Part shown: one piece after another, positions 3,388 through 19,506 of the stretch
Position numbering within the stretch: position 1 is the stretch's first letter
How the letters are laid out: every line of letters starts with the position of its first letter
Assembly: GCA_034190085.1 (NCBI GenBank)
Contig: JAXHTS010000067.1
Location: 1 to 48,941, forward strand
DNA: 48,941 bases
Direction of reading: 5' to 3'
Origin: Spirochaetota bacterium
GTDB taxonomy: Bacteria > Spirochaetota > UBA4802 > JAFGDQ01
Notes under the pieces: model-generated
Databases searched by the model: none
Told to the model about the DNA's origin: nothing
What the model saw: only the letters and a program-made list of their open reading frames with translations
Position numbers and translations under genes: made by a program

Positions 3388-5910
3388 ATGGCACAAGAAG
3401 CAGAAAAGGTTAGCAGCGCAGTTCAGAAAAAGAGTATTGAGGAGCTTGAGGAGGGTAGGGAATGGTGGTGGGTAGCTGAAAAAAAGAGATCCTCAAGGTT
3501 GGATTATTTACGAAAGGCTGTCTGGAAGAAGGGGAAAAAGGGCGGCATGTATGAGCCTGGTATTAAAATGGATCTTGAGAGGCCGATGCTATTCACAGAG
3601 TCATGGAAGGAGAATGAGAATGATCCTATTATGATGAGAAGGGCAAAGGCTGTTTCGCATGTACTTGATAACATTACAATTCACATTACAGATCAGGCTC
3701 AGCTTGTAGGATATCTGGGAAGTCTACCCAACACGCTTTTATGGTATCCAGACATAGCGAGTTTCATCAATGAGGAGATTTACAACGATCCAGTTGTAAT
3801 ACCTGAACCCCAGGAAGAATCCCTTAAGGTTATGGCTGATATCAATAATTACTGGGGGCCAAGGGATAATTTAGGCAAGGTCTTCCGTGAGTTCTCCAGT
3901 GAGGAGGCCGTAAAGCTCATGAGTACTGTTCTGATGTGGGGCCTTCCTGTTGGTGGCAGCTTTGGGTATGCAGGGAAGGATTATGAATACTTGATGACTG
4001 GTAAGAGGGGGTTTGAGGATATCATTGATGAAATTCAGGAGAAGATAGATGACGCAGAAGATAGAATTGATGGAAATCCTGGGCCTGAGATTCTGCCATT
4101 ATATGATAAGCTATCAAATTGGGAGGCTATGCAGATTGTATTGGAGGCATGCCTAGGAATAGCAAGGAGGTATACTAGATTAGCTAAGATAATAGCCGAA
4201 AATTACGAATCAGATCCCAAGCGTAAAGAAGAACTTTTACGTATTGCGGAGACTTGTGAGAGAGTGCCGGCGAAGCCGCCAAGAAGCCTTCGGGAATCAT
4301 TTCAGTATGATCACTTCATACAAATTTTTACTAGATTTGAGGATGGTGAGGGTGCATGGCCTTCACGCCCTGATTACTATCATTGGCCCTACTACAATAA
4401 GGATGTAAATATTGAAAAGAATATTACAGAAGAGGAAGCGCTTGATCTTGTTGGGGAGTTTATGATTCGCTGTAATGAGGTTGGGATGTATGCCCCGAGA
4501 TTTGGATCTGATGGAGTACAGGGAATATCAGGCACCTGGGTATGGACTATTGGGGGTGTTAATCCTGATGGCACTGATGCATGCAATGATCTTACGATGG
4601 CCCTGTTAAAGGTATCAAGGCTTGTAAGAGTATCCAATCCAACCTTCGGATTCAGATGGCATCCTCAGGTAAAGGATGAGGTGATGAGGGAGGTGTTTGA
4701 GTGTATACGTCATGGACTGGGGTATCCAAGTATACGGAATGATCCGATTTTGATTGCGAATGGGATGAACTGGCATGGACATCCACTGGAGGAGATGAGA
4801 ACCTGGGTGCATCAGGCCTGTATGTCGCCATGTCCTGCCACAAAGCATGGTTCACAGCCAGCGCGAATGGCTTCGGCTACTCTTAATACATCCAAGATGG
4901 TTGAGTATGCGTTACATGATGGGTATGACCATTGTATCAAGTTGCAGATGGGACCAAAAACAGGTAACGCGAGGGGATTTACTGATTTTGAGCAATTATT
5001 TAAGGCCTGGGTTAAGCAGATGGAATGGCTTATGAATTTTGGAACCCGTATAGTAAATCGAGGTAGAATGAAGAGTCCTGAATTTTATGGTCGTCCCTTC
5101 CTGTCCGCCATTTCTGAAAAATCGGTAGAGAGTGGCCTTGATGCGCTTGAACCATCGATAGAGCGGGGAAATGCATGGGTAACATTCTTTACTTGGGTGG
5201 AGAATGCAGACAGCCTAGCGGCAATAAAAAAAATAATCTTTGATGATAAGAAATACACAATGAAAGAGCTCATTGATGCCTTGGAGTCCAACTGGGAAGG
5301 GGCGGAGGAGATGAGGCTTGACTTTGTGAAGAATGCTCCCAAATGGGGTAATGATGTTGATTATGTTGATGAGATAATGGTTCGCTGTATGAGGGAAGTA
5401 GCTCGACATTCAAAGGAGATCAGATGCCCTTCAGGAAACACATGGCCTGCTCTACCTGAAAACGTAAGCGGGAACATACACTTTTCAACAATGGTGCATG
5501 CTCTCCCTAATGGCAGAAAATTGGGAGATGCTCTATACGATGGCGGCATTTCTCCTGGACCAGGACTGGACAAGAAGGGGCCTACAGCAGTATTAAAGTC
5601 ATGCGGGAAGATAAACCACATAAGCGATGGAAGGGCTTTTCTGTTGAATCAGCGGTTATCGCCAACCCAACTTTCTGGAGAGAAGGGTTATCAATTATGG
5701 AAGGCATATTTGAAGACCTGGGCTGATTTGGGATTGGATCACGTTCAGTTTAATATGGTGGATGACGCTACGCTTAGGGCAGCGCAAAAGGATCCTGAGC
5801 AGTATCAGGAGGTGATTGTTCGTGTTGCTGGATATAGTGCTCACTTTGTTGATATCAGCCGTAAGACACAGGACAATATCATACAGCGGACGATACAGGG
5901 TTTAGGATAG
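3388..5910 (+). CDS. Glycyl radical enzyme, fumarate-adding (alkyl/arylalkyl-succinate synthase alpha subunit type), copy 3
   Basis: This 840-residue paralogue aligns over its full length, without visible gaps, with the copy at 744-3266. It has Cys478 in HQACMSPCP, Arg493 in PARM and radical glycine Gly815 in RVAGYSAHF, so it should be catalytically competent once activated. Substitutions relative to copy 2 cluster around residues 355-385 and around the thiyl cysteine (ATKHGSQPARM here, TTKHGFQPCRM there), regions likely to line the hydrocarbon pocket, which hints at different substrates. The start follows GGGAGG. The Fe-S small-subunit gene begins 181 bases after the stop, with a long hairpin between. 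Its last bases and the following spacer are identical to those of copy 4. Confidence 0.93.
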   Translation: MAQEAEKVSSAVQKKSIEELEEGREWWWVAEKKRSSRLDYLRKAVWKKGKKGGMYEPGIKMDLERPMLFTESWKENENDPIMMRRAKAVSHVLDNITIHITDQAQLVGYLGSLPNTLLWYPDIASFINEEIYNDPVVIPEPQEESLKVMADINNYWGPRDNLGKVFREFSSEEAVKLMSTVLMWGLPVGGSFGYAGKDYEYLMTGKRGFEDIIDEIQEKIDDAEDRIDGNPGPEILPLYDKLSNWEAMQIVLEACLGIARRYTRLAKIIAENYESDPKRKEELLRIAETCERVPAKPPRSLRESFQYDHFIQIFTRFEDGEGAWPSRPDYYHWPYYNKDVNIEKNITEEEALDLVGEFMIRCNEVGMYAPRFGSDGVQGISGTWVWTIGGVNPDGTDACNDLTMALLKVSRLVRVSNPTFGFRWHPQVKDEVMREVFECIRHGLGYPSIRNDPILIANGMNWHGHPLEEMRTWVHQACMSPCPATKHGSQPARMASATLNTSKMVEYALHDGYDHCIKLQMGPKTGNARGFTDFEQLFKAWVKQMEWLMNFGTRIVNRGRMKSPEFYGRPFLSAISEKSVESGLDALEPSIERGNAWVTFFTWVENADSLAAIKKIIFDDKKYTMKELIDALESNWEGAEEMRLDFVKNAPKWGNDVDYVDEIMVRCMREVARHSKEIRCPSGNTWPALPENVSGNIHFSTMVHALPNGRKLGDALYDGGISPGPGLDKKGPTAVLKSCGKINHISDGRAFLLNQRLSPTQLSGEKGYQLWKAYLKTWADLGLDHVQFNMVDDATLRAAQKDPEQYQEVIVRVAGYSAHFVDISRKTQDNIIQRTIQGLG

Positions 5911-6023
5911 TAGCATGAGATATGGGAGTCGTAAATTATTTGATTCTTAATGATCAATTATAGATGGAAGTGGGATTATATATTTAATTTTCATAGCTAT
6001 CACCACCGCTCTTGGCGGTGGTG
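5881..6023 (+). repeat. 143-nt identical tract, copy A (pairs with 8975-9117)
   Basis: From the last codons of enzyme copy 3 through the stop, spacer and hairpin, I find no difference from 8975-9117. Coding sequence immediately upstream differs at many third positions, so this non-coding spacer is better conserved than the gene, pointing to recent segmental copying or gene conversion. Confidence 0.85.
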
Positions 6024-6028
6024 ATAGC
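5996..6028 (+). terminator. Long hairpin between enzyme copy 3 and the small subunit
   Basis: The stem GCTATCACCACCGC pairs perfectly over 14 bp with GCGGTGGTGATAGC around a TCTTG loop. There is no T run, so it is more likely an mRNA processing or stabilising element that sets subunit ratios, or a weak terminator. A shorter version occurs at 9095-9117. Confidence 0.55.
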
Positions 6029-6091
6029 CTCTAAAATGATTTAATTTAGTTGGTGCTACATAATAATGACATATTTAGGAGGTGAAGTATT

Positions 6092-6379
6092 ATGCCTAGG
6101 AGGAAGGGAGGTGAATGGGATAGGGTAAGGGGCGCCATGTTGGGCATTATTGAGAAGGGTGGAAGCATGGAGGAGCAGGATATGCCTGAGAAGGCCTGTG
6201 GAAGATGCAGGAATTACATTCAGGGAGGATGCGGTTTAGGGGCTGTAAGCGGAATGTGTAATGTTCTTAAGGAAGGTTCTGATATAACACTTCATGAACC
6301 ACTCTTCCAGACAAAAGGCGACTCTTGTTATCTCGTTATCTCCAATATGGATGCAAGTAGGTGTAAATATTATTCATAA
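6092..6379 (+). CDS. Small Cys-rich Fe-S subunit of a fumarate-adding glycyl radical enzyme (BssB/BssC-like)
   Basis: This 95-residue protein has six cysteines (36, 39, 47, 56, 79, 91), with a CxxC pair followed by spaced cysteines. Benzylsuccinate synthase and relatives carry small subunits that bind a low-potential [4Fe-4S] cluster and regulate or stabilise the catalytic subunit; the size, cysteine pattern and position between two catalytic genes fit that role. ATG at 6092 follows AGGAGGTG. It is the only intact small-subunit gene seen for three to four catalytic genes, so it may be shared, or further copies lie upstream of the window. I cannot say whether it matches the beta or gamma subunit. 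The basic N-terminus (MPRRKGGEWDRVRG) is unusual to my eye. Confidence 0.72.
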   Translation: MPRRKGGEWDRVRGAMLGIIEKGGSMEEQDMPEKACGRCRNYIQGGCGLGAVSGMCNVLKEGSDITLHEPLFQTKGDSCYLVISNMDASRCKYYS

Positions 6380-6415
6380 GATATTTGTAGATTTTACTGG
6401 TTATAATTTTTGACT

Positions 6416-6426
6416 AAGGGGGTGAT
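6416..6426 (+). repeat. AAGGGGGTGAT element, copy before enzyme copy 4
   Basis: Same 11-mer as 3307-3317. Here it precedes an 8-codon open frame (ATG at 6439) that ends before the real start of the enzyme gene. Confidence 0.4.
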
Positions 6427-6484
6427 AAAAAAAAGAGAATGTTGTTTTTGGTTTTGATATATTAAACATGAAAGGAGGATTAAA

Positions 6485-9004
6485 ATGACACCAGAATTAC
6501 ATAAAAATACAGAGCTTTCGCAAAAGAAGAGTATGAAAGAACTTGAAGAGAGTAGAGAGTGGTGGTGGGTTGCCGAGAAGAAGAGGTCAAAGCGACTGGA
6601 TTATCTTAGGAAGGCTGTCTGGAAAAAGGGCAGAAAGGGAGGAATGTATGAACCAGGCCTTAAGGTAGATATTGAAAGACCACTATTATTCACAGAGGGT
6701 TGGAAGGATAACGAGAATGAACACATAATAATGAGAAGAGCCAAGGCCTTAGCCTATGTGTTTGACAACATTCCGATCTTTATTACAGACCAAGCACAGC
6801 TTGTGGGATATTTGGGGAGTCAACCAAATACCCTCTTCTGGTATTGTGAATTAGCTAGTTTCGGAAATGATGAGATATACAATGATCCAGTTGTAGTCCC
6901 TGAACCTCAGGAGGATTCTCTCAAGGTTATGGCGGATATCAACAATTATTGGAGTACAAGGGATTGTATGGGGAAGATGTTGAGGGACCTCTCAGGTGAG
7001 GAAGTTGTAAAAATGATGACTTTTGTACTCTTGTGGAGTTTCCCTGTTGGCGGCAGCTTCGGTTATGCGGGTAAGGATTACGAGTACTTTATGACTGGCG
7101 AGAAAGCATTTGAAGATATTATTGATGAGATACAGATGAAGATAGATGAGGCAGAGGATAAAATTGATGGCAATCCAGGCCCTGATATTCTGCCACTATA
7201 TGATAAGCTAACCAATTGGGAGGCAATGCAGATTGTTCTAGAGGCTTGTATAAGAAATGCCAAGAGGTATTCAAGGTTGGCGCGTATAATAGCGGAGAAT
7301 TTTGAATCGGATCCCAAGAGAAAGGAAGAGCTACTAAGGATTGCAGAGACATGTGAAAGAGTGCCCGGGAAGACACCGAGGAATCTGCAGGAATCACTTC
7401 AATATGATCACTTCATTCAAGTGTGGACTAGATTTGAGGATATTGAGGGTGCATGGCCAGCTCGTCCGGATTATTATCATTGGCCATATTATGAAAAAGA
7501 TGTCATTGTAGATAAGAGTATTACGAGAGAGGAAGCGATTGATCTTCTTGGAGAGTATATGATTCGTGCCAATGAGACCGGTTATTATCTAGCAAGGGTT
7601 GGCGCTGAAGGAATTCAGGGTATAACAGGTACATGGGTATGGACTTTAGGCGGAGTCAACAAAGACGGCACTGATGCGTGCAATGATTTGACTATAGCCC
7701 TTTTGCAGGCAGCAAGGCTAGTGCGGGTCTCAAATCCTACATTTGGATTCAGGTGGCATCCACAAGTATCGGATGAGGTGATGCGGGAGGTATTCGAGTG
7801 TATACGACATGGTTTAGGTTATCCCAGCATTCGAAATGATCCGATTTTAATTGCAAATGGTATGAATTGGCATGGACATCCTTTGGAAGAGATGCGGACA
7901 TGGGTTCACCAGGCATGCATGTCGCCTTGCCCAACAACTAAGCACGGCGCACAACCAGCAAGAATGGCAGCAACCCTGAATTGTTCGAAAATGGTAGAGT
8001 ATGCGCTACATAATGGATTTGATCATATAGTCAATATGCAGATGGGTCCGGAAACAGGGGATGCTACTAAGTTTACTGACTTTGAACAGCTTTTCCAGGC
8101 TTGGGTTGCGCAGATGGAATGGTTGATGAACTTTGGAACTCGGATAATGAACCGTGGCAGACAGAAGAGCCCAGAAAATCATGGGCGTCCCTTTTTATCA
8201 TCTATATCAGAGAAGTGTGTAGAGAGTGGTTTAGATGCTCTTGATCCCACGATAGAGCGTGGAAATTGTTGGGTTACATTTTTTACCTGGGCTGAGAATG
8301 CTGATAGTTTGGCTGCTGTGAAAAAACTAATTTTTGATGAAAAGAAATACTCTATGGAAGAATTAGTTGAGGCGTTAAGGTGCAACTGGGAGGGTAGAGA
8401 GGAGATGAGATTGGATTTTGTGAAGAATGCGCCTAAATGGGGAAATGACAATGATTATGTTGATGAGATAATGGTTCGCTGTTTGAGAGAGGTTGCAAGG
8501 CATTCACGGGAGATAAAGTGTCCGTCTGGGAATAATTGGCCTGCTTTGCCTGAGAATGTGAGTGGAAATATTCTATTTTCGAGTCTAGTTCATGCATTGC
8601 CAAATGGTAGGAAATTGGGGGATGCCCTTTATGATGGCGGAATTTCGCCAGGCCCGGGATTAGATAAGAAGGGACCTACGGCAGTGTTGAAATCATGTGG
8701 GAAGATAAATCATATAAGCGATGGCAGAGCCTTTCTGCTTAATCAGCGCCTTTCTCCTACACAATTATCAGGTGAAAAGGGATATCAGTTATGGAAATCC
8801 TATATGAAGACCTGGGCTGATTTGGGGTTAGATCATGTGCAGTTTAATATGGTTGATGACGCTACACTTCGTGCTGCTCAGAGTGATCCTGAGCAGTATC
8901 AGGAGGTGATTGTTCGTGTGGCAGGATACAGCGCTCACTTTGTGGATATCAGCCGCAAGACGCAGGATAATATTATACAGCGGACGATACAGGGTTTAGG
9001 ATAG
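6485..9004 (+). CDS. Glycyl radical enzyme, fumarate-adding (alkyl/arylalkyl-succinate synthase alpha subunit type), copy 4
   Basis: This 839-residue paralogue keeps Cys478, Arg493 and the radical glycine (Gly814). It is one residue shorter because a Ser codon is missing just after Arg493 (RMAATLN here, RMASATLN in the other copies), close to the active site. It also has distinctive differences at 115-125 and 175-195, such as WSFPVGG for WGLPVGG. The start ATG follows AAGGAGG with good spacing. It lies 105 bases after the small-subunit gene, so the two may be co-transcribed. It is followed by a near copy of the spacer and small-subunit start seen after copy 3, but that second small-subunit gene is broken. 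Substrate is unknown; fumarate addition is inferred from the Cys/Arg spacing. Confidence 0.93.
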   Translation: MTPELHKNTELSQKKSMKELEESREWWWVAEKKRSKRLDYLRKAVWKKGRKGGMYEPGLKVDIERPLLFTEGWKDNENEHIIMRRAKALAYVFDNIPIFITDQAQLVGYLGSQPNTLFWYCELASFGNDEIYNDPVVVPEPQEDSLKVMADINNYWSTRDCMGKMLRDLSGEEVVKMMTFVLLWSFPVGGSFGYAGKDYEYFMTGEKAFEDIIDEIQMKIDEAEDKIDGNPGPDILPLYDKLTNWEAMQIVLEACIRNAKRYSRLARIIAENFESDPKRKEELLRIAETCERVPGKTPRNLQESLQYDHFIQVWTRFEDIEGAWPARPDYYHWPYYEKDVIVDKSITREEAIDLLGEYMIRANETGYYLARVGAEGIQGITGTWVWTLGGVNKDGTDACNDLTIALLQAARLVRVSNPTFGFRWHPQVSDEVMREVFECIRHGLGYPSIRNDPILIANGMNWHGHPLEEMRTWVHQACMSPCPTTKHGAQPARMAATLNCSKMVEYALHNGFDHIVNMQMGPETGDATKFTDFEQLFQAWVAQMEWLMNFGTRIMNRGRQKSPENHGRPFLSSISEKCVESGLDALDPTIERGNCWVTFFTWAENADSLAAVKKLIFDEKKYSMEELVEALRCNWEGREEMRLDFVKNAPKWGNDNDYVDEIMVRCLREVARHSREIKCPSGNNWPALPENVSGNILFSSLVHALPNGRKLGDALYDGGISPGPGLDKKGPTAVLKSCGKINHISDGRAFLLNQRLSPTQLSGEKGYQLWKSYMKTWADLGLDHVQFNMVDDATLRAAQSDPEQYQEVIVRVAGYSAHFVDISRKTQDNIIQRTIQGLG

Positions 9005-9356: not shown

Positions 9357-12300
9357 CTAACGCTCGTAGTGGTATCCCATGTCTACCGTACCAGCGTCAT
9401 ATAAACCGTTAGTGAGTGTAGTCTTATCGTTCAGGCCAAGAAATAGCGCGGTGTCGCTTCCAATGTCAAAGCATGGGCTAACAGTATAAGGTTGATGGGG
9501 ATGGAGAGACAGATAGTAACCGCCTCTGGAACCAGTGCAAAACTCCGGATCGCTGTTTATGTTGCCTTCTCCAGGGTAACCGCCATCTATGTCCGAGTAG
9601 GTGACAGTTGGATCACTTGATGCATTCCAGTTATATATCTCATCTCCGCTTCCTGCATCATCATTCCACATTATGCAATCTGTGATAGTAGGCGAGCTGC
9701 TGTTTATGTTGAATATCCCGCCGCCAGCGTAGACTGCGCTGTTCTCGCTGAAAGTACTGTTTAACACTTTTGGCGAACTATTATTGTTATACACTCCACC
9801 ACCTTGTGATGCGGCAGAGTTATTTATAAGGAGGCAATTCTTTATGGTTACAATATTCGAGTTGTCTTCACAATAGATACCCCCGCCATTAGTGCTCGTA
9901 TTGGAATCAAAGGTGCAATTTTCAATAGTTATAGAAGATAAACCGATGTACATACCGCCACCCCAGTATGCATTGTTTTCCTCAAATTTGCAGTTAGCAA
10001 TTGTAATATCAACCTTCAAGCTGCTGAAAATGCCACCACCCCGGATATTTGAATCTCCGCCTGTTGCATTACCTCCGGTTATAGTAAATCCGTCGAGGCG
10101 CGCATTATGACTGCCAACCACAACATGATAGACCTCATCATGCCCATTCAGTATGGTCTCATTATCCTCTGGATAATCTCGATCATTGAGGCTTTCCTCA
10201 GTTCCGTCAAATCCTCCGTAAATATCCACATTACTTTTCATGGTGAGCAGTACAGTGTCGGTGCCTGATCTTCGCCAGTATGTGCCCTCTGCAATCCATA
10301 TCTGATCGTCATCAGAGGCAACGTCAATGGCATCCTGTGGATGATCAAAGGCATTAGCCCAGGAGCTTCCATCCTCACTTCCTGCGCCACCTACAACTAC
10401 GTATAGGATATCAGCCACTTCCTCTATATCAATGTTCACCGTGGCTGTATTGCTATTCTCAATTCCATCATCCACATAGAAGGTAAAGCTATCATCACCA
10501 CTGTAGTTGGGATCAGGAGTATATGTCAGATTTGGCGTGGTCCCGCTGAGGTCGCCGTGTTGAGGATTGCCGTAATGCCATCCAAGCGGATCATTATTGG
10601 CGTCGCTTGCTGTAAGGGTAATCTCAACTGAGGTGTCCTCGGAGGTAGTCACAGACTGCGAGTCAGCAACCGGAGGTACATTCTCCCAGACAAGGGGGGT
10701 AGGATCAACGCTGTCGGACCTGCTGTCGCGGTCTGTATCCCAGTTGTTGGGGTCGGTTAAGGCGCTAATCTCATCAGGATCAAGCAGACTATCGTCATCT
10801 ATATCCGCGCTTAATGGATTAGAATAGACCGCATAGGCATGCTCTTCATCATCTTTCCCGGTATATGAAACCCCCCAGCTTTCATATATTTCCTGAAAAT
10901 CTGTTAAACCATCATCGTCAGTATCCTCATCATCATCCCTTGTTCCTAGGGCATGCTCTACTATGTCCATCACTCCATCGCTGTCTTCGTCCTTGCCGTA
11001 AACAAGATATATCTTGTCCTTATACTCAAGAACAATATCATCAAAATTGCCGTCATCAACCATCTCTGCTCTGCCATCTCTTTCCGAGTCAAGTATAACA
11101 ACCCAAAAACCCTCTTCCATGTTTTTCGCTTCAACATTGCCGATTCTATACAATACGTCATTTCCAAGTTCCCGGGTCTCATAATCCTTTTGCAGAGCAT
11201 TCTCCATAACCTCTTTCATGGTTATGCCCATCGGTTTTCCATTGGCATTACGGCGAACATTCGTAGCCACTAAATATCGCTCAGGGACCATTCCTGAAAC
11301 ATGCCCATAATTGATCTCCACTAACGCAGTTTTAACAACAGTCTCTTCATTTATAAACACAAAGTCCCTGTCATCTTCATCCACAAGATCAAAATTGCTA
11401 AGCTCAACAAATAGACCATTAGGATTAGCCATAAGTGATTCAATCTCAGTGACAGAAACGTCGTTATTCTCAATCACATAAGGTCCCTTTGTGCCGCCAT
11501 TCGGCTCCATGCCCATCCCATCCTGATCTATCCCATCTATCTTAAGTGTTGTGATGACCTTATATTGAGAGGGATTTTCAGCGTCACGCTTTCCAATTGT
11601 AATATATGGATTTTTTAGCGTAAATGCTTTATCACCAGGATTAGTTACCATTAAACCAAGTTTGATGAATCCTGATATAGTTTCCACCTCGCGGCTCTGG
11701 TAGTATTTCCGCGCCTCGCTGTATTCGTGTTGAGAATGTTGATATGATGATTTATCAACCACTAATGTATGCCCCTTTGACATTGTATTATGTGTGGAGT
11801 ATCCCGTCTTTACAGTAAGCGAGGCGGATGGGAATAACCCCCATGTGCCTGTTGACGCCTTTAGCTTTGTGTCAATATAGAAATTATTTTCTGAAAATCG
11901 ATGCGTGACAGTTGTGTCGCTTGTTGAATAAGTGCTAGATTCTTCTGTCAATTCTGACTCAAATGTCTCTGTCTCTCCGCCGGTTTCATCTGTTACTTTT
12001 ATATTGAGTCCAATATTGGGGACGCCCCATATTGAAAGCTCAACCTGCGGGATTTCCGCAATAAGAGGATTATATCCGCCTGTTGATATCTCATCAGAGT
12101 CGCTCATGCCATCGCCGTCAGTATCAGCCATTGCCGGCGATGTATGATGGATTACCACCTCATCACCGTCATTTACGCCGTCTTCGTCAGTGTCGGTCTT
12201 TTCAGGATCGCTTGAATACTCCATGCACTCGCAGTAGTCTGTAAGACCGTCGCCGTCGGTATCGGTTGTGTCTGAAGGATCTGGGTCTTCAAATATTAGC

Positions 12301-12449
12301 GCACAAATTGCTGAACTGTCGCTGTTATCGCCACTATCAGGGATGAAGGGGAAGTCGCTGCCACCATCATCTCCGCAATTAATCACAACACCAAATGCAG
12401 CAATTAATGCAATAACCAAGAGTTTTTTTAATAAACCATGCTTCCTCAT
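9357..12449 (-). CDS. Large surface lipoprotein: calcium-type (thrombospondin type 3) repeats, cadherin-like domain, beta-helix
   Basis: The 1030-residue protein starts MRKHGLLKKLL and has a lipoprotein signal peptide ending at Cys25 (VVINC). Next come Asp-rich repeats of the DTDGDGLTD type, a middle region unknown to me, a second Asp-rich cluster, a cadherin-like/tandem-95 domain (PPVADSQSV... NPDPNYSGDDSFT-like pattern) and a right-handed beta-helix with many GGG(I/V/M)Y/F turns and N-rich rungs. The beta-helix and C-terminus resemble polymorphic outer-membrane or choice-of-anchor proteins. It is probably anchored in the outer membrane and faces outward. Two in-frame starts both have good ribosome-binding sites: ATG at 12449 after AAGGAGG, and ATG at 12518 after AGGAGG, which would add 23 residues before the signal peptide. 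A promoter-like element shared with the ECF sigma gene lies at 12594-12630. Ligand unknown. Confidence 0.85.
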   Translation of the reverse strand: MRKHGLLKKLLVIALIAAFGVVINCGDDGGSDFPFIPDSGDNSDSSAICALIFEDPDPSDTTDTDGDGLTDYCECMEYSSDPEKTDTDEDGVNDGDEVVIHHTSPAMADTDGDGMSDSDEISTGGYNPLIAEIPQVELSIWGVPNIGLNIKVTDETGGETETFESELTEESSTYSTSDTTVTHRFSENNFYIDTKLKASTGTWGLFPSASLTVKTGYSTHNTMSKGHTLVVDKSSYQHSQHEYSEARKYYQSREVETISGFIKLGLMVTNPGDKAFTLKNPYITIGKRDAENPSQYKVITTLKIDGIDQDGMGMEPNGGTKGPYVIENNDVSVTEIESLMANPNGLFVELSNFDLVDEDDRDFVFINEETVVKTALVEINYGHVSGMVPERYLVATNVRRNANGKPMGITMKEVMENALQKDYETRELGNDVLYRIGNVEAKNMEEGFWVVILDSERDGRAEMVDDGNFDDIVLEYKDKIYLVYGKDEDSDGVMDIVEHALGTRDDDEDTDDDGLTDFQEIYESWGVSYTGKDDEEHAYAVYSNPLSADIDDDSLLDPDEISALTDPNNWDTDRDSRSDSVDPTPLVWENVPPVADSQSVTTSEDTSVEITLTASDANNDPLGWHYGNPQHGDLSGTTPNLTYTPDPNYSGDDSFTFYVDDGIENSNTATVNIDIEEVADILYVVVGGAGSEDGSSWANAFDHPQDAIDVASDDDQIWIAEGTYWRRSGTDTVLLTMKSNVDIYGGFDGTEESLNDRDYPEDNETILNGHDEVYHVVVGSHNARLDGFTITGGNATGGDSNIRGGGIFSSLKVDITIANCKFEENNAYWGGGMYIGLSSITIENCTFDSNTSTNGGGIYCEDNSNIVTIKNCLLINNSAASQGGGVYNNNSSPKVLNSTFSENSAVYAGGGIFNINSSSPTITDCIMWNDDAGSGDEIYNWNASSDPTVTYSDIDGGYPGEGNINSDPEFCTGSRGGYYLSLHPHQPYTVSPCFDIGSDTALFLGLNDKTTLTNGLYDAGTVDMGYHYER

Positions 12450-12593: not shown

Positions 12594-12630
12594 ATAAGCG
12601 ATCTTTCAGCCCGATTCGTCACAAAAAAAA
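12594..12630 (-). promoter_or_regulatory. Predicted ECF-sigma promoter of the large lipoprotein
   Basis: On the minus strand a T-run ending in GTGACG is separated by exactly 16 bases from CGCTTATC. The same parts with the same spacing stand 24 bases before the ECF sigma gene. ECF promoters typically have a -35 box and a short -10 box at about this spacing. The leader to the ATG would be 70-135 nt depending on the start used. Confidence 0.7.
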
Positions 12631-13345: not shown

Positions 13346-16246
13346 TTATGGCCCATAGTCCAATATATTGTTCTCCCACACGACTATCTCGCCGTTATCG
13401 GATGCTGTGGCGATTATATCCATATCGCCGTCATCATCAATATCCGTAATAAATACCGATGACGCGCCATCAAAATCGGCTGCAATGGTGTGTTCAATCC
13501 ATTCAGTGTTATTGCCAATCATAGGATTCTTCCACCATGCTATTTTATCTCCATCTCTGGCCGTTGCCGCTATATCCATATCGCCATCGCCATCAAGATC
13601 AGCGGCATATACCGAAGATGCTCCATCGAATGAAGAGCTGACTGTCTGCCTACTTCCAAACGTGCCGTCACCATTATTTTCCCACCATGCAATCTCGTCA
13701 ATATCGCCACCTGCGGCGCCCAATACATCTATGTCTCCATCTTTGTCCATATCCAAGGCATAGGCATAATAAGATGGGAAGAAGCTATCATCGATGGTAT
13801 GAAGTGAACCTACAGGGTATTCAACACCTCCATTAGGGAAACTGCCACAGCCATCCATGTTTTCCCACCACCTTATACCACCATTAGCGCTAAGGACATC
13901 CATATCATCATCCCCATCAATATCAGCAGCCATAACCGAACGAGGTCCTCCCCAAGACATTGGTGATATGTTATGGTAGTCCCATTGTGTGCCATCGTCA
14001 GGCAAAGTGCCGTCGTTCTCCCACCAGATTATCCATGCTGAGCCCCACATAGATTCAATCACGTCCAGATCGCCGTCATTATCCATATCCGCGGCATACA
14101 CAGATTCATCGCCCCCACCAACGTATCCCATTTCATGCCTATCCCAATAAAGACCGTTGCCCTCTGTATTTTCCCACCATATCACACCGTCTCCGTCTCC
14201 TGCGCCAATCACATCTATGTCTCCATCTAAATCCATATCTAATGCATAACATGAACAGGCGCCTGTGAAATTGGTGTCAATAGGATGGCTGATTGTTACA
14301 AAGCTTTCATTATCAATGTTCTCCCACCATGTAATGGAGCCTAAAGAGCCGCTAGCTGTATTTAGTATATCCATATCGCCATCACCGTCTATATCAGCCG
14401 AATTGACCGAATTAGCTCCGTTGAGGGTTTCACTAATTGTGTGCCTGTACCAGCCATCCAATCTAATATTATACCAGGATATGCTATCCCCTGCGGCAAG
14501 CACATCCATATCACCATTACCATCCATATCTGCTGCATAAACTGAGCAAGCATCTAATAATTGATAGTTGATGATTTTTTTGGTGAAGCCTTCATTGCCA
14601 TTGTTATTCCACATTGCGATCAAAGAATCGCCGGTTCCCAAAACATCGGTTTTTCCATCTCCATCAATATCGGTTGTAAATAGTGAGGAGGGCCGTGAAT
14701 AATCGCTGTCGAGGGTAATTCTTGGCCCAAAGGTACCATTGCCGTCTGTGTTCTCCCACCAGATTATTTCGTAGATATCTTTTGGCTCACCAAAGTTGAC
14801 TATCCCCAATCCAAGCGTATCTAAATCGTTATCATCATCTATATCTATTGTTGTTAAGGATGTACAGTTGTGGAAACTATCGTCAAATATATGCTTTGTC
14901 CAGGATGTGCCATCTCCACTGGTGTTTTCGTGCCATTGTAATCTGCCTGGAGAACCTGAGGTGGAAGCCAACACATCCAGATCATTATCATTGTCAATAT
15001 CAGTCAGATAAGCATATCCTAAATACCAATCGTCAATTATTATGCCATCGCCGGTGAAGTTTCCGCTTCCATCGTTTGCCCACCAAGCGCTATTGCGGCC
15101 TACCGCCAAAACGTCGAGGCCATTAACTCCATCAATATCGGCTGCGCATACCATGCGCGCATAAGGGAAACTGACGATGCTCTGCTTTTCACCAAATGTG
15201 TCATCGCCGTTGTTCCTCCACCAAGCTATCTCGGCAATATAATAGGGTGACTTCCCACCTGATGCGGCCAGCACATCAATATTTTCATCGTCATCTAAAT
15301 CTACCGCAACAACATGGTTGTAATATGAGTTATCGAGGATGCTGGCTATGATTTGCTTATCTCCAAATGAACCGTTTCCATTGTTCTTCCACCAGGCTAT
15401 CTCGCCAATATAATCGGGTGACTTCCCACCTGATGCGGCCAGCACATCCATCTCACCATCGCCATTTAAATCTGCCGCAACAACATTACGGATATTATCG
15501 ACATTACTATCGATTGAATGTTCAATTGGCATAATAACAGTGATATAATTATCTCTTATCTTGTAGTGAGAACCGCCCGGTCCTGACAGGGTTAGCATAA
15601 CAGAGTAGGAGCCAGGGCTGTTATATGTATAGCTTGGATTCTGCTCATTTGAATCGATAACACCATCTCCATTGAAATCCCATTCCCATAATGTAATATC
15701 ACCAAGAGATTTATCCTCAAAATCTACAGTAAGTGAGATGATGCCCTTCCTTAACCTTGTGTTAAAATCGCAAACAGGATTTGTATTCCCTGAAACCGTA
15801 AATGTATATAGGCCTTCATCGAGGTCATTATTCATAATGGATATTGTTGCCGAGTTATTGCCTGGTAATTCAGGATTGTATGTTACAGAAAAAGTTACAT
15901 TTCTGCCTGCAGGAATAATGGAGGATGAGGGCTGCTCGATTTGAAAAATATCATCGCTTTCACAGTCTGCACAGCTAATTGTTATAATTGGCTCACCTGT
16001 CAGCATCAAATCGGCTAATCCGAGGTTTTCAATTAAAAATGTAATATTCGGACTTGAATCATTTACCTTAACTCCAACAATATCGTATCTGCCGCTGGGG
16101 GATAGAATATTATCAGCTCCCTGTTTCACATTGATCTCCGGGATTCGTGGATCTTTTGTGGAGTCTATTCCCTCCTGGATCATATTGCTGCAATAAAGAA
16201 GTGATAGAGATAGCAGAATATTCAAAATTGCTATTGCATTTTTCAT
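13346..16246 (-). CDS. Lipoprotein with HYDIN/ASH-like, PKD and many VCBS (FG-GAP) repeats
   Basis: The 966-residue protein has a signal peptide with a lipobox ending at Cys19 (LSLLYC). Residues 35-155 look like an ASH/choice-of-anchor-D domain (PVTFSVTYNPELPG-like text), and about 160-240 is a PKD domain (WEWDFNGDGVID). The rest is at least a dozen VCBS/FG-GAP repeats of the type DIDGDGDMDVLA...IAWWENNGDGTFG, which form a beta-propeller and bind calcium in relatives. It probably sits on the outer-membrane surface and takes part in adhesion or recognition; the ligand is unknown. It begins 37 bases after the CsgG-like protein gene and is likely in the same transcript. A 33-nt stretch is repeated exactly one repeat unit apart, showing recent internal copying. 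Confidence 0.87.
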   Translation of the reverse strand: MKNAIAILNILLSLSLLYCSNMIQEGIDSTKDPRIPEINVKQGADNILSPSGRYDIVGVKVNDSSPNITFLIENLGLADLMLTGEPIITISCADCESDDIFQIEQPSSSIIPAGRNVTFSVTYNPELPGNNSATISIMNNDLDEGLYTFTVSGNTNPVCDFNTRLRKGIISLTVDFEDKSLGDITLWEWDFNGDGVIDSNEQNPSYTYNSPGSYSVMLTLSGPGGSHYKIRDNYITVIMPIEHSIDSNVDNIRNVVAADLNGDGEMDVLAASGGKSPDYIGEIAWWKNNGNGSFGDKQIIASILDNSYYNHVVAVDLDDDENIDVLAASGGKSPYYIAEIAWWRNNGDDTFGEKQSIVSFPYARMVCAADIDGVNGLDVLAVGRNSAWWANDGSGNFTGDGIIIDDWYLGYAYLTDIDNDNDLDVLASTSGSPGRLQWHENTSGDGTSWTKHIFDDSFHNCTSLTTIDIDDDNDLDTLGLGIVNFGEPKDIYEIIWWENTDGNGTFGPRITLDSDYSRPSSLFTTDIDGDGKTDVLGTGDSLIAMWNNNGNEGFTKKIINYQLLDACSVYAADMDGNGDMDVLAAGDSISWYNIRLDGWYRHTISETLNGANSVNSADIDGDGDMDILNTASGSLGSITWWENIDNESFVTISHPIDTNFTGACSCYALDMDLDGDIDVIGAGDGDGVIWWENTEGNGLYWDRHEMGYVGGGDESVYAADMDNDGDLDVIESMWGSAWIIWWENDGTLPDDGTQWDYHNISPMSWGGPRSVMAADIDGDDDMDVLSANGGIRWWENMDGCGSFPNGGVEYPVGSLHTIDDSFFPSYYAYALDMDKDGDIDVLGAAGGDIDEIAWWENNGDGTFGSRQTVSSSFDGASSVYAADLDGDGDMDIAATARDGDKIAWWKNPMIGNNTEWIEHTIAADFDGASSVFITDIDDDGDMDIIATASDNGEIVVWENNILDYGP
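15245..15277 (-). repeat. 33-nt direct repeat inside VCBS gene, copy 1
   Basis: Identical to 15416-15448, offset by 171 nt, i.e. 57 codons or one VCBS unit. The flanks are also similar. This indicates recent unit duplication within the propeller. Confidence 0.8.
15416..15448 (-). repeat. 33-nt direct repeat inside VCBS gene, copy 2
   Basis: Partner of 15245-15277; encodes the same VLAASGGKSP segment in the neighbouring VCBS unit. Confidence 0.8.
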
Positions 16247-16283: not shown

Positions 16284-17372
16284 CTAATAAAACATCTTTA
16301 CACCGGCATCAGCGCCCAAAATTTGACCGGTATTGCTTTTTTCAAAAAAATATGTATAGTTTGGCGAAAGAAAGATGTGCAGATTTAAAGACATAATGTA
16401 TTCCAGATCACACCTTGCTGAGGCAACGGGATCATAAAAATTCTCTCTCGAATATTCATAATCACCAAATTGATCCACACCGTCTTTGTCGTAGGTCATC
16501 ATATTTATAAAATATCCACAACCCAAATAGGGGACTATTCTTATTTTTCTCGATAGTTTGTAGATGTAACCAAGATTAAGCATTATCGGCGCTGTTATAA
16601 TTGACTCAATGGAATCATCGGCCCCATCAAAGGAATAAATGCCCGTTGATATGGTTAAAACAGCGTTTTTATAGATAAAATTGTTGACATTGAGATTTAG
16701 ATTGAAGCCGTATCCATCGTCACCAACCTTTGAGTAATCTCCAATTGCATATTGAAAACCAAATGAAATGGAATAGCTCAAATAGGTTTCTGTCTTAAAA
16801 TCGTATTCCAACATCTCAACAATCTCAATGCACGCCTCTTCCAGACGGGACTCTTCATCCGCCTTCACCTTGTAGTTGCCTTCCACTTTGCCGATTGCGA
16901 CATTTACGATCCTCAGGAGAATATAGTATGTATCAATCTTATGAATCGCTCCTATTATAATCTTGTTTGCGGAGAGTAGCCTCCCGACCTTAACAGCGCA
17001 TTCAGAATCTGTACACCAACTCTTCTGCAGTTCCATCTCTTCGAATACCTTATCAATCTGATTTCTCTCCACTATGGTAAAGATATGAGTCTCAAATATC
17101 CTTGCGCTAACTATGTCAGTTACAGCTTTAGCTATGGACTGGGGGCAATTATGCGCCTTAAAATCCAAAATCGCTGCCCTTTCTTTATCATTATCATTTT
17201 TATTCTTCATGGAATATGCTTGAGTAACCATAAGAAGTGATAAAACAATGGCTAAAATAGGCCATCTTTGAGTTATTATGACGCATATATATATTAATTT
17301 CATATAATTACATTCTTGTAATTGTATAAAATTCCAATGCCGTAAGAATAACAAACCAAGTCTTTTGTTCAT
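16284..17372 (-). CDS. CsgG-like domain fused to predicted outer-membrane beta-barrel
   Basis: The protein has an N-terminal hydrophobic segment ending near VTQAYS, then a CsgG/LpoB-like domain (ILDFKAHNC... IVERNQIDKVFEEMELQKS... LLSANKIIIGAI). The C-terminal half is made of alternating hydrophobic strands with a terminal aromatic (VKMFY), as in outer-membrane barrels. CsgG-like domains in relatives bind lipoprotein or curli partners in the periplasm. ATG at 17372 is chosen because GAGGTG precedes it; an in-frame GTG four codons earlier overlaps that site. A later Met (MKLIYICVI) gives a more usual signal peptide length but has no ribosome-binding site. It lies between the anti-sigma gene and the VCBS lipoprotein gene, and may help place or sense surface lipoproteins. 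Confidence 0.75.
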   Translation of the reverse strand: MNKRLGLLFLRHWNFIQLQECNYMKLIYICVIITQRWPILAIVLSLLMVTQAYSMKNKNDNDKERAAILDFKAHNCPQSIAKAVTDIVSARIFETHIFTIVERNQIDKVFEEMELQKSWCTDSECAVKVGRLLSANKIIIGAIHKIDTYYILLRIVNVAIGKVEGNYKVKADEESRLEEACIEIVEMLEYDFKTETYLSYSISFGFQYAIGDYSKVGDDGYGFNLNLNVNNFIYKNAVLTISTGIYSFDGADDSIESIITAPIMLNLGYIYKLSRKIRIVPYLGCGYFINMMTYDKDGVDQFGDYEYSRENFYDPVASARCDLEYIMSLNLHIFLSPNYTYFFEKSNTGQILGADAGVKMFY

Positions 17373-17492: not shown

Positions 17493-18329
17493 TTACTCGC
17501 TTCTATTCCATATATCGCTGACACTAATAATCTGTTCAGCAATCTGTTCTAACTTGCTATCCAAGTTATCCACTTGCTTATAATTTATTGTCTTACCAAA
17601 TAACTGCTTTCCGCTCTCCCCATCTACAACCCTAACAGCAAGTATATATGAGTCTCTAAGTCTGCTGACTCTTCCAACCAACTGCCTGTTTACGCTTTTC
17701 TCAATCCCTTCAATTCTCTTATATACTACAAGGTTTCTACCCTTCAGCAAGCGAAGCTTTTGATATAATTTATCGGTTATATCAGATGCAATCCTTTTAT
17801 CAACTCCGCTTGCTTCAAATCTGTTTATCCCAAGCCTTGCGTTTATGGCTATAGGTTTTTTCCCTTTTAATCTTTCGAATGTTTGCGCGTTTCTCTTTTT
17901 TATTCCAACTGATTCTCTTGGCTGCTTCCATTTCTCGTTTAACTTTTTGATGATCGATTTTTCAGGCATAATATTATCTTTGTATAATTCGATTACTTCT
18001 TTGTTATCTAAGAATTCAGATTTGGTTTCCTTTAGGAAATCCGCCACTATTACAACTCCTGTAGATAATGAGGCTCCTAATAATAATGATATTATACCTA
18101 AAACAATTTTACTCTGAACGACTGAAATGGTTAATCCAAGCTTTCCGGAAAGAAAGTATATTCTGAGAACAAGATCGTATACTAAATTGTATTCACCAAC
18201 CGCCCTTAAAGTTTCCAAAAGGGCCCGCGCTCTATTATCGAGAATGTATTCCTTTACATCCTGAGGGATGGATTGCCTAAGCTTAAGTTTATCCAGTGCC
18301 CTCTCGAATATATTGAATCTATCGTTCAT
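17493..18329 (-). CDS. Probable membrane anti-sigma factor with CsgG-like outer domain
   Basis: The 278-residue protein overlaps the ECF sigma gene by four bases (ATGA), the usual arrangement for an anti-sigma factor. It has a cytoplasmic-type helical N-terminus (1-74), one transmembrane segment at about 75-98 and an outer domain. Residues 160-275 (INRFEASGVDKRIASDITDK... LVVYKRIEGIEKS... YILAVRVVDGESGKQLFG) look like the CsgG/TolB-N-type fold of the next gene product. No zinc-binding anti-sigma motif (HxxxCxxC) is present, and I do not recognise an established anti-sigma family. The role is inferred from overlap, topology and context. Confidence 0.62.
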   Translation of the reverse strand: MNDRFNIFERALDKLKLRQSIPQDVKEYILDNRARALLETLRAVGEYNLVYDLVLRIYFLSGKLGLTISVVQSKIVLGIISLLLGASLSTGVVIVADFLKETKSEFLDNKEVIELYKDNIMPEKSIIKKLNEKWKQPRESVGIKKRNAQTFERLKGKKPIAINARLGINRFEASGVDKRIASDITDKLYQKLRLLKGRNLVVYKRIEGIEKSVNRQLVGRVSRLRDSYILAVRVVDGESGKQLFGKTINYKQVDNLDSKLEQIAEQIISVSDIWNRSE

Positions 18330-18844
18330 AGAAGGTCCTCAATGTCCTTTATGCCCTTCTTATTCAAATAATCGATTATTCGATCAACTATACGTCTATA
18401 TCTATATTCTGCTTTTCTTTTAGTTAATCCCATTTGTTTTGCGGCTTCGCTGTAACTGTAATTATACACTGCAATAAGATCAAAGAGGGTCTTTTCCCCT
18501 TCATCTCCAAAATTGTCCATATTATCAATGGCCTCGCTTATGATTACTCTGCTGTCTTTAAATCCATTCACAAATGTAAGGCCTACATCTCCAAATACAT
18601 CATCAATATTGACTTCTTCAGCCCTTGTCCTTCTAAAAAACTCCAGAATGGCAATCCGTAATGCTCCATAAAGCCATTTTCTGCTGTTTTGTATCTCCTC
18701 ATATTTTTCAAAGAATTTGATAAATATTTCCTGACAGATGTCACTTGCATCATCAATATTGCCTATTTTTGTATAAACTGTGCTGAATACAACAGGATAA
18801 TATCTTTTATGATCTTCAGTAAATTTATCCTTCTTTGTGGCCAT
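18326..18844 (-). CDS. ECF-type RNA polymerase sigma factor
   Basis: The 172-residue protein has a sigma-70 region 2 (DDASDICQEIFIKFFEKYEEI... WLYGALRIAILEFFRR) and a region 4 helix-turn-helix (YNYSYSEAAKQMGLTKRKAEYRYRRIVDRI), with no region 1 or 3, as in ECF factors. It directs polymerase to a small set of promoters and is normally held by a membrane partner until a signal arrives. The partner gene overlaps its stop. Upstream lies a bipartite element that also occurs before the large lipoprotein gene, which suggests autoregulation and a local regulon of surface proteins. Confidence 0.9.
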   Translation of the reverse strand: MATKKDKFTEDHKRYYPVVFSTVYTKIGNIDDASDICQEIFIKFFEKYEEIQNSRKWLYGALRIAILEFFRRTRAEEVNIDDVFGDVGLTFVNGFKDSRVIISEAIDNMDNFGDEGEKTLFDLIAVYNYSYSEAAKQMGLTKRKAEYRYRRIVDRIIDYLNKKGIKDIEDLL

Positions 18845-18867
18845 CTATTGTGATGCCTTCTATAATT

Positions 18868-18902
18868 ATAAGCGTTTTTTTGTGAGCAAACGTCACAAAA
18901 AA
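18868..18902 (-). promoter_or_regulatory. Predicted autoregulated ECF promoter of the sigma operon
   Basis: Minus strand: a T-run and GTGACG, 16 bases, CGCTTATA, then a short leader to the ATG at 18844. An inverted repeat TTTTTTGTGA/TCACAAAAAA (18876-18902) with a 7-nt loop overlaps the -35 part, so a repressor site is another or additional explanation. The match in sequence and spacing to 12594-12630 supports a shared promoter. Confidence 0.7.
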
Positions 18903-19121: not shown

Positions 19122-19506
19122 ATGAGTTTGATCAAGTTACAACCTGTAGTCTGGGATTGCAAGTATCATATTGAAATAATCCCCAAATATCGTTACAAGG
19201 TTTTTAATAGAGAGATAAGGGAAGCGGTAATAGATGAAATATGAAAAGTTTGTTTATGGATGAGTGTAGAGATTATTGAAGGGAACGAATGCAAAGATCA
19301 TATTCATATGTGTATAGCAATACCGTCGAAGTATTCTAATTCAGAAATAATTGGAAAGTTGAAAGGTAAGACAGCGATAAGGATGTTTAATAAGTTTCCT
19401 GAATTAAGGCAGCATCCCGTTTTATGAATACATTATCAGTAACACCTGAAAAGTTACTATCGAATTTATTGATTATAATTTGAAAGAAATAAGGGGTAGT
19501 TGTTGA
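19122..19506 (+). pseudogene. Relic IS200/IS605-family TnpA (Y1 transposase)
   Basis: ATG at 19122 follows AGGAGG and opens MSLIKLQPVVWDCKYHIEII with the WDCKYH.(E/V)(I/W).PKYRY start of IS200 transposases. After an internal TGA it continues with VEIIEGNECKDHIHMCIAIP, carrying the HxH-type metal site (DHIHM), then SEIIGKLKGKTAIRMFNKFPELR. More stops and a frameshift follow before a C-terminal IDYNLKEIRG. The catalytic tyrosine part (YxxxQ) is not intact. Several stop codons make it inactive. Confidence 0.85.

Follow-up and report, generated by a model that had tools for sequence, protein, structure and literature searches.

Three adjacent genes in the window (the whole 48,941-nucleotide stretch of Spirochaetota DNA analysed here) probably encode a relay akin to cell-surface signalling, in which an ECF sigma factor, a membrane regulator with a CsgG-fold sensor and a non-TonB, eight-stranded barrel protein would be co-transcribed (Table 1). 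The cytoplasmic helices at the N-terminus of the regulator would hold the sigma factor, and a single membrane helix would connect them to a periplasmic sensor of the CsgG/LpoB fold, which may dock on, or compete for, the periplasmic domain of the same fold in its cognate barrel protein. A changed state of the barrel or of its surface cargo would alter this contact, after which the regulator would be changed or cut by regulated proteolysis, and the freed sigma factor would direct transcription of its own operon and of one or more large lipoprotein genes. Regulated proteolysis is possible since the genome holds two site-2 protease genes. Computation gave the gene family, the gene overlap, the membrane topology, the homology of the two folds, the gene adjacency, the co-divergence and the shared promoter-like motif on which this reading draws.

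Table 1. Features of the sigma factor locus and associated lipoprotein genes in the window.
Feature	Positions	Strand	Basis
ECF-type promoter-like motif TTTTTGTGACG-N16-CGCTTA, upstream of sigma	18869..18901	minus	56 sigma genes; perfect match
ECF sigma factor, 172 aa, regions 2 and 4	18326..18844	minus	TIGR02937, PF04542, family alignment
ATGA, overlap of sigma stop and regulator start	18326..18329	minus	exact 4-base overlap in 55/57 loci
Single-pass membrane sigma regulator, anti-sigma candidate, 278 aa	17493..18329	minus	family alignments; no Pfam/NCBIfam match
Regulator residues 1-74, cytoplasmic helical, candidate anti-sigma domain, unclassified family	18108..18329	minus	all 57 loci
Regulator residues 75-97, transmembrane helix, N-in/C-out	18039..18107	minus	hydropathy and net charge, 57 proteins
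Regulator residues 159-272, periplasmic sensor, short CsgG/LpoB/PelC/TolB-N fold	17514..17855	minus	hhalign, Foldseek
Partner, 339 aa: signal peptide, CsgG domain 42-169, 8-strand barrel 175-338	16284..17303	minus	Pfam, AlphaFold, Foldseek
Putative surface lipoprotein, 966 aa, PKD and FG-GAP repeats	13346..16246	minus	lipobox LLYC; Pfam
Other perfect copy of the promoter-like motif	12595..12627	minus	pattern search, 4.27-Mb genome; 6.3 kb from the copy before sigma
Putative target: large lipoprotein, TSP3 repeats, Big_9/cadherin-like	9357..12449	minus	ORF, DNA, Pfam

A conserved pair of sigma factor and overlapping regulator

The sigma protein matched the NCBIfam model TIGR02937 (sigma70-ECF) above its cut-off (1.4e-12), and using Pfam we detected region 2 (PF04542, 1.2e-8) and a weak region 4 (PF08281, 1.1e-4, below the gathering score). 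Regions 2 and 4 are the only ones predicted in this 172-residue protein, in keeping with the ~170-200 residues usual for ECF sigma factors, which places it in the ECF family. Alignment of its relatives showed a conserved linker, LTFVNGF(R/K)D, and a conserved C-terminal end, (D/E)LL. Scores against the family profile were >159 bits within one order of uncultured Spirochaetota, with most >190 and lower values for a few copies that are truncated or weak, and fell to ≤66 bits outside it; this sigma family is confined to that order. When contigs were scanned with the sigma alignment, four Spirochaetota metagenome-assembled genomes (MAGs) and distant ECF sigma factors were returned, and all named records among the near matches were Spirochaetota MAGs, while the same scan with the regulator alone as query gave no matches.

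An earlier note on this DNA, made from the sequence by itself, had described an ECF gene that overlaps the next gene, and the two do share exactly the four bases ATGA. The range that it gave, 18326-18902, takes in the sigma gene together with its promoter, with the anti-sigma candidate lying outside it at lower coordinates. In a first set of 39 loci carrying the N-terminal domain of the regulator, an ECF gene of the same family was located directly upstream on the same strand in all, with an overlap of exactly four bases in 37/39 pairs, of one base in another, and a 122-base gap in the last. Searching 59 relatives with the regulator gave matches in 26 genomes, and when 393 genomes from the phylum were searched with a profile, the N-terminal domain was detected in 29, all of which, except for three with weak matches, belong to the one order. 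On inspection two of these weak matches were unrelated frames, and the third (L214, in genome G070) was located in an adenylate-cyclase-like protein. From the phylum search we also fetched 20 newly found places as an independent set, in which the pair was present in 18 and overlapped by four bases in 18/18, with the start inferred inside a longer frame for two. An overlap that is identical in 37/39 and again in 18/18 loci is not due to chance. The note had proposed that the pair be sought in related genomes and the overlap checked there; the combined sample holds 57 such loci from the one order, with the overlap kept in 55, and the sigma factor and its overlapping membrane protein are thus a genuine gene family.

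Two further copies in the same genome are damaged, and the window copy was the only intact one found. At L002/L083 (C50:71506-72203, minus) the first ~60 sigma residues are followed by a deletion and then by the sensor of a paralogous regulator. At L283 (C54:1543-2019, minus) a third sigma gene of the family is cut before its end, and a transposase-like frame adjoins it on the opposite strand.

Residues 1-278 of the regulator matched no family in Pfam or NCBIfam, and the earlier note was right that it carries no known anti-sigma motif. Likewise, none of the curated anti-sigma domain models was found in it, and among 22 relatives only FlgO recurred (8/22), positioned on the sensor. Sequence searches of solved structures gave no useful match for the regulator, its N-terminal domain or the partner domain. 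The N-terminal 70-75 residues are nevertheless helical and conserved at each of the 57 loci, and the AlphaFold model predicts three helices ahead of the membrane helix. Across the 57 proteins the mean net charge falls from +2.5 before the membrane helix to about +0.5 after it, which places the N-terminus inside and the remainder outside and predicts the single-pass, N-in/C-out arrangement of a FecR/PupR-type regulator. Several relatives have a fairly hydrophobic helix 3 (about residues 49-63), and if it formed a second membrane span the C-terminal domain would be cytoplasmic. This we regard as very improbable, as its mean apparent insertion cost is about 5-7 compared with about 1 for the main helix, the loop between the two is positive, and homologous domains elsewhere stand behind a signal peptide (L039) or a lipobox (L037, L042).

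Alternatively, the overlapping protein might regulate positively, or might be a membrane protein unrelated to a constitutive ECF sigma factor with which it is co-transcribed. The lack of a known anti-sigma motif would fit this, and FecR-type regulators can act positively, as with LIC_12756 of Leptospira (PMC12155086), but the translational coupling kept in 55/57 loci and a topology as in sigma regulators argue against it. Furthermore, 13 members of the family carry this N-terminal domain ahead of a FecR region, a known sigma-regulator domain (two by Pfam, at 1.5e-7 and 3.6e-12, and the others read from sequence), and the distances of the N-terminal domain correlate with those of the sigma factor (0.66; partial correlation 0.50 given the partner). 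We consider such a role improbable and retain a sigma-binding, inhibitory N-terminal domain as the preferred reading.

Sensor fold, barrel partner and their pairing

The outer part of the regulator had been noted to resemble the CsgG-like fold of the protein encoded downstream, and this is borne out by profile, fold and the FlgO matches of relatives. Profile-profile comparison of the regulator and partner families using hhalign (98.6%, E 9.5e-16) aligned residues 159-272 with the CsgG domain, while a direct BLASTP of one window protein against the other was only marginal (E 0.003), so the resemblance is real but faint in the two sequences themselves. In an AlphaFold model of the sensor built from 22 relatives, pLDDT for this block was mostly 82-96, with lower values near residues 201-210 and at the C-terminus, and the confident C-terminal domain (residues 165-270) has the order beta-beta-alpha-beta-beta-beta-alpha. 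Foldseek searches of the PDB, which used full-length models, matched it with PelC, TolB-N, FlgT, LpoB, the periplasmic domain of CadC and CsgG; the structure search that the note had proposed as a check thus returned the CsgG superfamily. By profile and predicted fold the sensor belongs to the CsgG/LpoB superfamily, and it corresponds to the domain of the partner without a two-helix insert that bears a C-x-D-x-x-C-A motif.

The length of the partner is counted from the ATG at 17303, and longer starts are possible. Its CsgG domain was detected with Pfam (PF03783, 1.9e-8), and in its AlphaFold model (pLDDT 86) the domain at residues 42-169 matched LpoB using Foldseek (TM 0.68 on target), while the barrel matched NspA, Ail, OmpX and OmpA. 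With a separate C-terminal eight-strand barrel predicted after the domain, the partner is not a CsgG secretion channel of the curli type, a ring-forming lipoprotein that builds its barrel from its own hairpins and is encoded beside curli genes, and no curli genes were recognised among the window ORFs examined. In some relatives the partner has a helical C-terminal part in place of the barrel. We also considered whether the likeness of sensor and partner arose by recent duplication or gene conversion, and rejected this: each sensor has another sensor as its best match, and in no case is the nearest domain that of its own partner.

The outer parts of the 57 regulators comprise the CsgG fold in 29, a small beta domain that we name KNG, with or without a FecR region, in 23, and no recognisable domain in five. 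An exported CsgG-domain protein is encoded adjacent to 28/29 of the CsgG-type regulators and to 0/28 of the others (Fisher 2e-15), and is placed downstream in 24 cases and upstream of the sigma gene in four; L069 is the one CsgG-sensor regulator lacking an adjacent partner. A KNG-domain neighbour accompanies 10/23 KNG-type regulators compared with 0/29 (7e-5), in an approximate count made by hand that includes the L075 neighbour, a weak profile match, on its sequence pattern. This neighbour combines a KNG-like N-terminal domain with a C-terminal region like the barrel of the CsgG-type partners. Among the short regulators, most lack a matching neighbour. On a tree of the sigma factor and regulator N-terminus, the CsgG sensors require four or more changes on branches with good support; in four independent comparisons, too few for significance alone, the presence of a partner tracks the type of sensor and never the opposite.

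Adjoining genes co-diverge anyway, and the partial correlation is the sole control for that. Distances between sensors and between partner domains correlated at 0.71 (28 loci) and still at 0.47 given the sigma distance, a value reached in 0/2000 permutations, while the regulator N-terminal domain and the partner gave 0.11 given sigma (p 0.08). Sensor and partner domain thus co-diverge beyond what sigma explains. This is the pattern expected, if indirectly, were the N-terminus to contact the sigma factor and the sensor to contact the partner.

It is also conceivable, although in our view unlikely, that the sensor has no contact with the barrel, the barrel gene being only a target of sigma and both folds binding a third thing, such as peptidoglycan, a lipoprotein or a ring-forming periplasmic protein. 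Domains of the CsgG fold fill many envelope roles (PelC, LpoB, FlgT, TolB-N), eight CsgG-domain proteins are encoded in this genome, and lipoproteins are also present in the operon. However, a CsgG-domain neighbour occurs only with CsgG-sensor regulators even though the sigma family is the same, partner presence tracks sensor type across the tree, the partner is sometimes upstream of the sigma gene, and sensor and partner domain co-diverge beyond sigma. We therefore favour contact between the sensor and the barrel protein. The suggestion of the earlier note that one fold may sense an envelope partner built from the same fold likewise gains strong comparative support, from the 28/29 against 0/28 adjacency, the co-divergence and, more weakly, the KNG match.

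Tentatively, this may extend to a general homotypic rule within the order, by which the sensor is exchanged jointly with the periplasmic domain of the neighbour and the regulator domain joins or mimics the oligomer or complex of the partner, a generalisation about which we are somewhat doubtful. Its pairings would perhaps be of like with like for the CsgG fold, the small beta domain and the FecR region.

Related domains were also observed in other settings. The window-type sensor is fused to FecR regions elsewhere, and six FecR-like proteins unlinked to a sigma gene (L034, L035, L037, L038, L041, L042) end in a sensor-like domain with up to 45% identity to the window sensor. At L039 the sensor occurs as a free secreted protein behind a signal peptide, and at both L039 and L041 the sensor domain adjoins a window-type partner (the CsgG barrel protein in L041). 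Regulators with FecR and the small beta domain (L195, L196, L198, L202, L208, L210) lie beside separate two-part exported proteins with both of the same parts, some of them divergently transcribed. Short regulators without a folded outer domain (L045, L046, L055, L073) have a common tail, xSD(V/I)P(T/S)L or TVPSM, and two or three of them adjoin similar Trp-rich exported proteins.

Promoter-like motif and surface lipoproteins

Upstream of 56 sigma genes of the family we detected a two-block motif, (A/T)TTTTTTGT(G/C)-N15-nnnaCgCTa, at one fixed spacing, with a summed score of 726 compared with 541 +/- 13 in shuffles. The search for a regulon in the whole genome used patterns only. Within the 4.27 Mb of the genome, perfect matches to TTTTTGTGNCG-N16-CGCTTA lie at two sites only, one of which, before sigma, is the source of the search pattern itself, while looser matches numbered 26 compared with 30 for the reversed pattern. 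The other perfect site is positioned ~145 bases upstream of the likely start of the large lipoprotein gene, a start (12449) inferred from a ribosome-binding site and the lipobox VINC; by eye, its product has beta-helix-like C-terminal repeats. The gene for the 966 aa lipoprotein (PF13517, 5e-63; PF18911, 4.5e-10) begins 37 bases past the partner gene, and in family operons with a co-directional gene past the partner a lipoprotein is encoded in 11/15, compared with 27/326 background genes. Second copies of the motif in relatives (≤2 mismatches) precede a lipoprotein gene in two genomes (G034, G038) and a gene for a barrel protein in G029, which is a hint only, since such counts hardly exceed the reversed-pattern control. 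Because the motif is shared and lipoproteins are found in 11/15 operons, the output of the sigma factor is probably its own operon and large surface lipoproteins, with promoter activity that we infer from these patterns.

The surrounding DNA holds other features. Just upstream of the sigma promoter is an IS200-like transposase remnant with in-frame stops (19123-19470, plus). Two near-identical glycyl-radical-type enzymes of 840 and 839 aa are encoded at 3388-9004 (plus), with a small Cys-rich protein between them (6092-6379), and judged by eye they may belong to the arylacetate decarboxylase or alkylsuccinate synthase type.

Relation to known signalling systems

The earlier note knew of no described ECF pair of this design, but a precedent exists in the sigma regulator PupR, whose STN subdomain shows structural homology to the signalling domain of PupB, its partner in the outer membrane (PMC7186176). 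The idea of a same-fold sensor is already known from the solved PupR/PupB, and the window system varies a known design. As in FecI-FecR-FecA and PupI-PupR-PupB, it combines an ECF sigma factor with a single-pass regulator that has an N-terminal cytoplasmic domain and a periplasmic C-terminal sensor, and its partner, like FecA and PupB, is predicted to be an outer membrane barrel with an N-terminal periplasmic domain. In contrast to those systems, the sensor has the CsgG/LpoB fold and not STN, the partner an eight-strand barrel of the OmpA/OmpX type and not that of a TonB-dependent receptor, and the N-terminal domain of the regulator matches no described family. No STN domain was found in this genome, and Pfam detected neither FecR nor STN in the window regulator, although FecR is present in other family members. 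With no STN in the genome, a partner that is not TonB-dependent and a regulator without a FecR match, the window system is not a member of the Fec/Pup group.

Another parallel is Leptospira LIC_12757/LIC_12756, likewise a spirochaete ECF sigma factor with an adjoining single-pass, FecR-like regulator, in which binding was detected by two-hybrid and residues 1-73 of LIC_12756 are cytoplasmic, 68-90 membrane and the rest periplasmic (PMC12155086); unlike the window system, no sensor-matched outer membrane partner is described for that pair. Class I anti-sigma factors (RseA, RsiW, RskA, ChrR) share with the regulator a helical N-terminus, a membrane helix, a periplasmic sensor and co-transcription with an ECF gene, but they have four helices (PMC7406223), whereas three are predicted before the membrane helix here, and the regulator matches no anti-sigma family model. 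The fold of CsgG, LpoB, PelC and TolB-N is common to the window sensor and the periplasmic domain of the partner; unlike in those envelope domains, one window copy sits on a membrane sigma regulator and lacks the two-helix insert. This fold was also matched by the periplasmic domain of CadC, a membrane-bound transcription regulator of the one-component, DNA-binding type with no ECF sigma factor. Among the papers searched, none combined terms for an anti-sigma factor, an outer membrane protein and a CsgG domain.

ECF cell-surface signalling is known mainly from TonB-dependent receptors, whereas the lineage-wide ECF switches described here would reach the outer membrane via a different fold and a different kind of barrel. 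Their candidate anti-sigma domain is missed by current models, and as the type of sensor tracks the type of domain in the neighbour, how envelope sensors choose their partners becomes directly testable. The recurring same-fold pairing suggests that like-folded pieces are used for reporting on the cell surface, and hints at how uncultured spirochaetes may control large surface lipoproteins.
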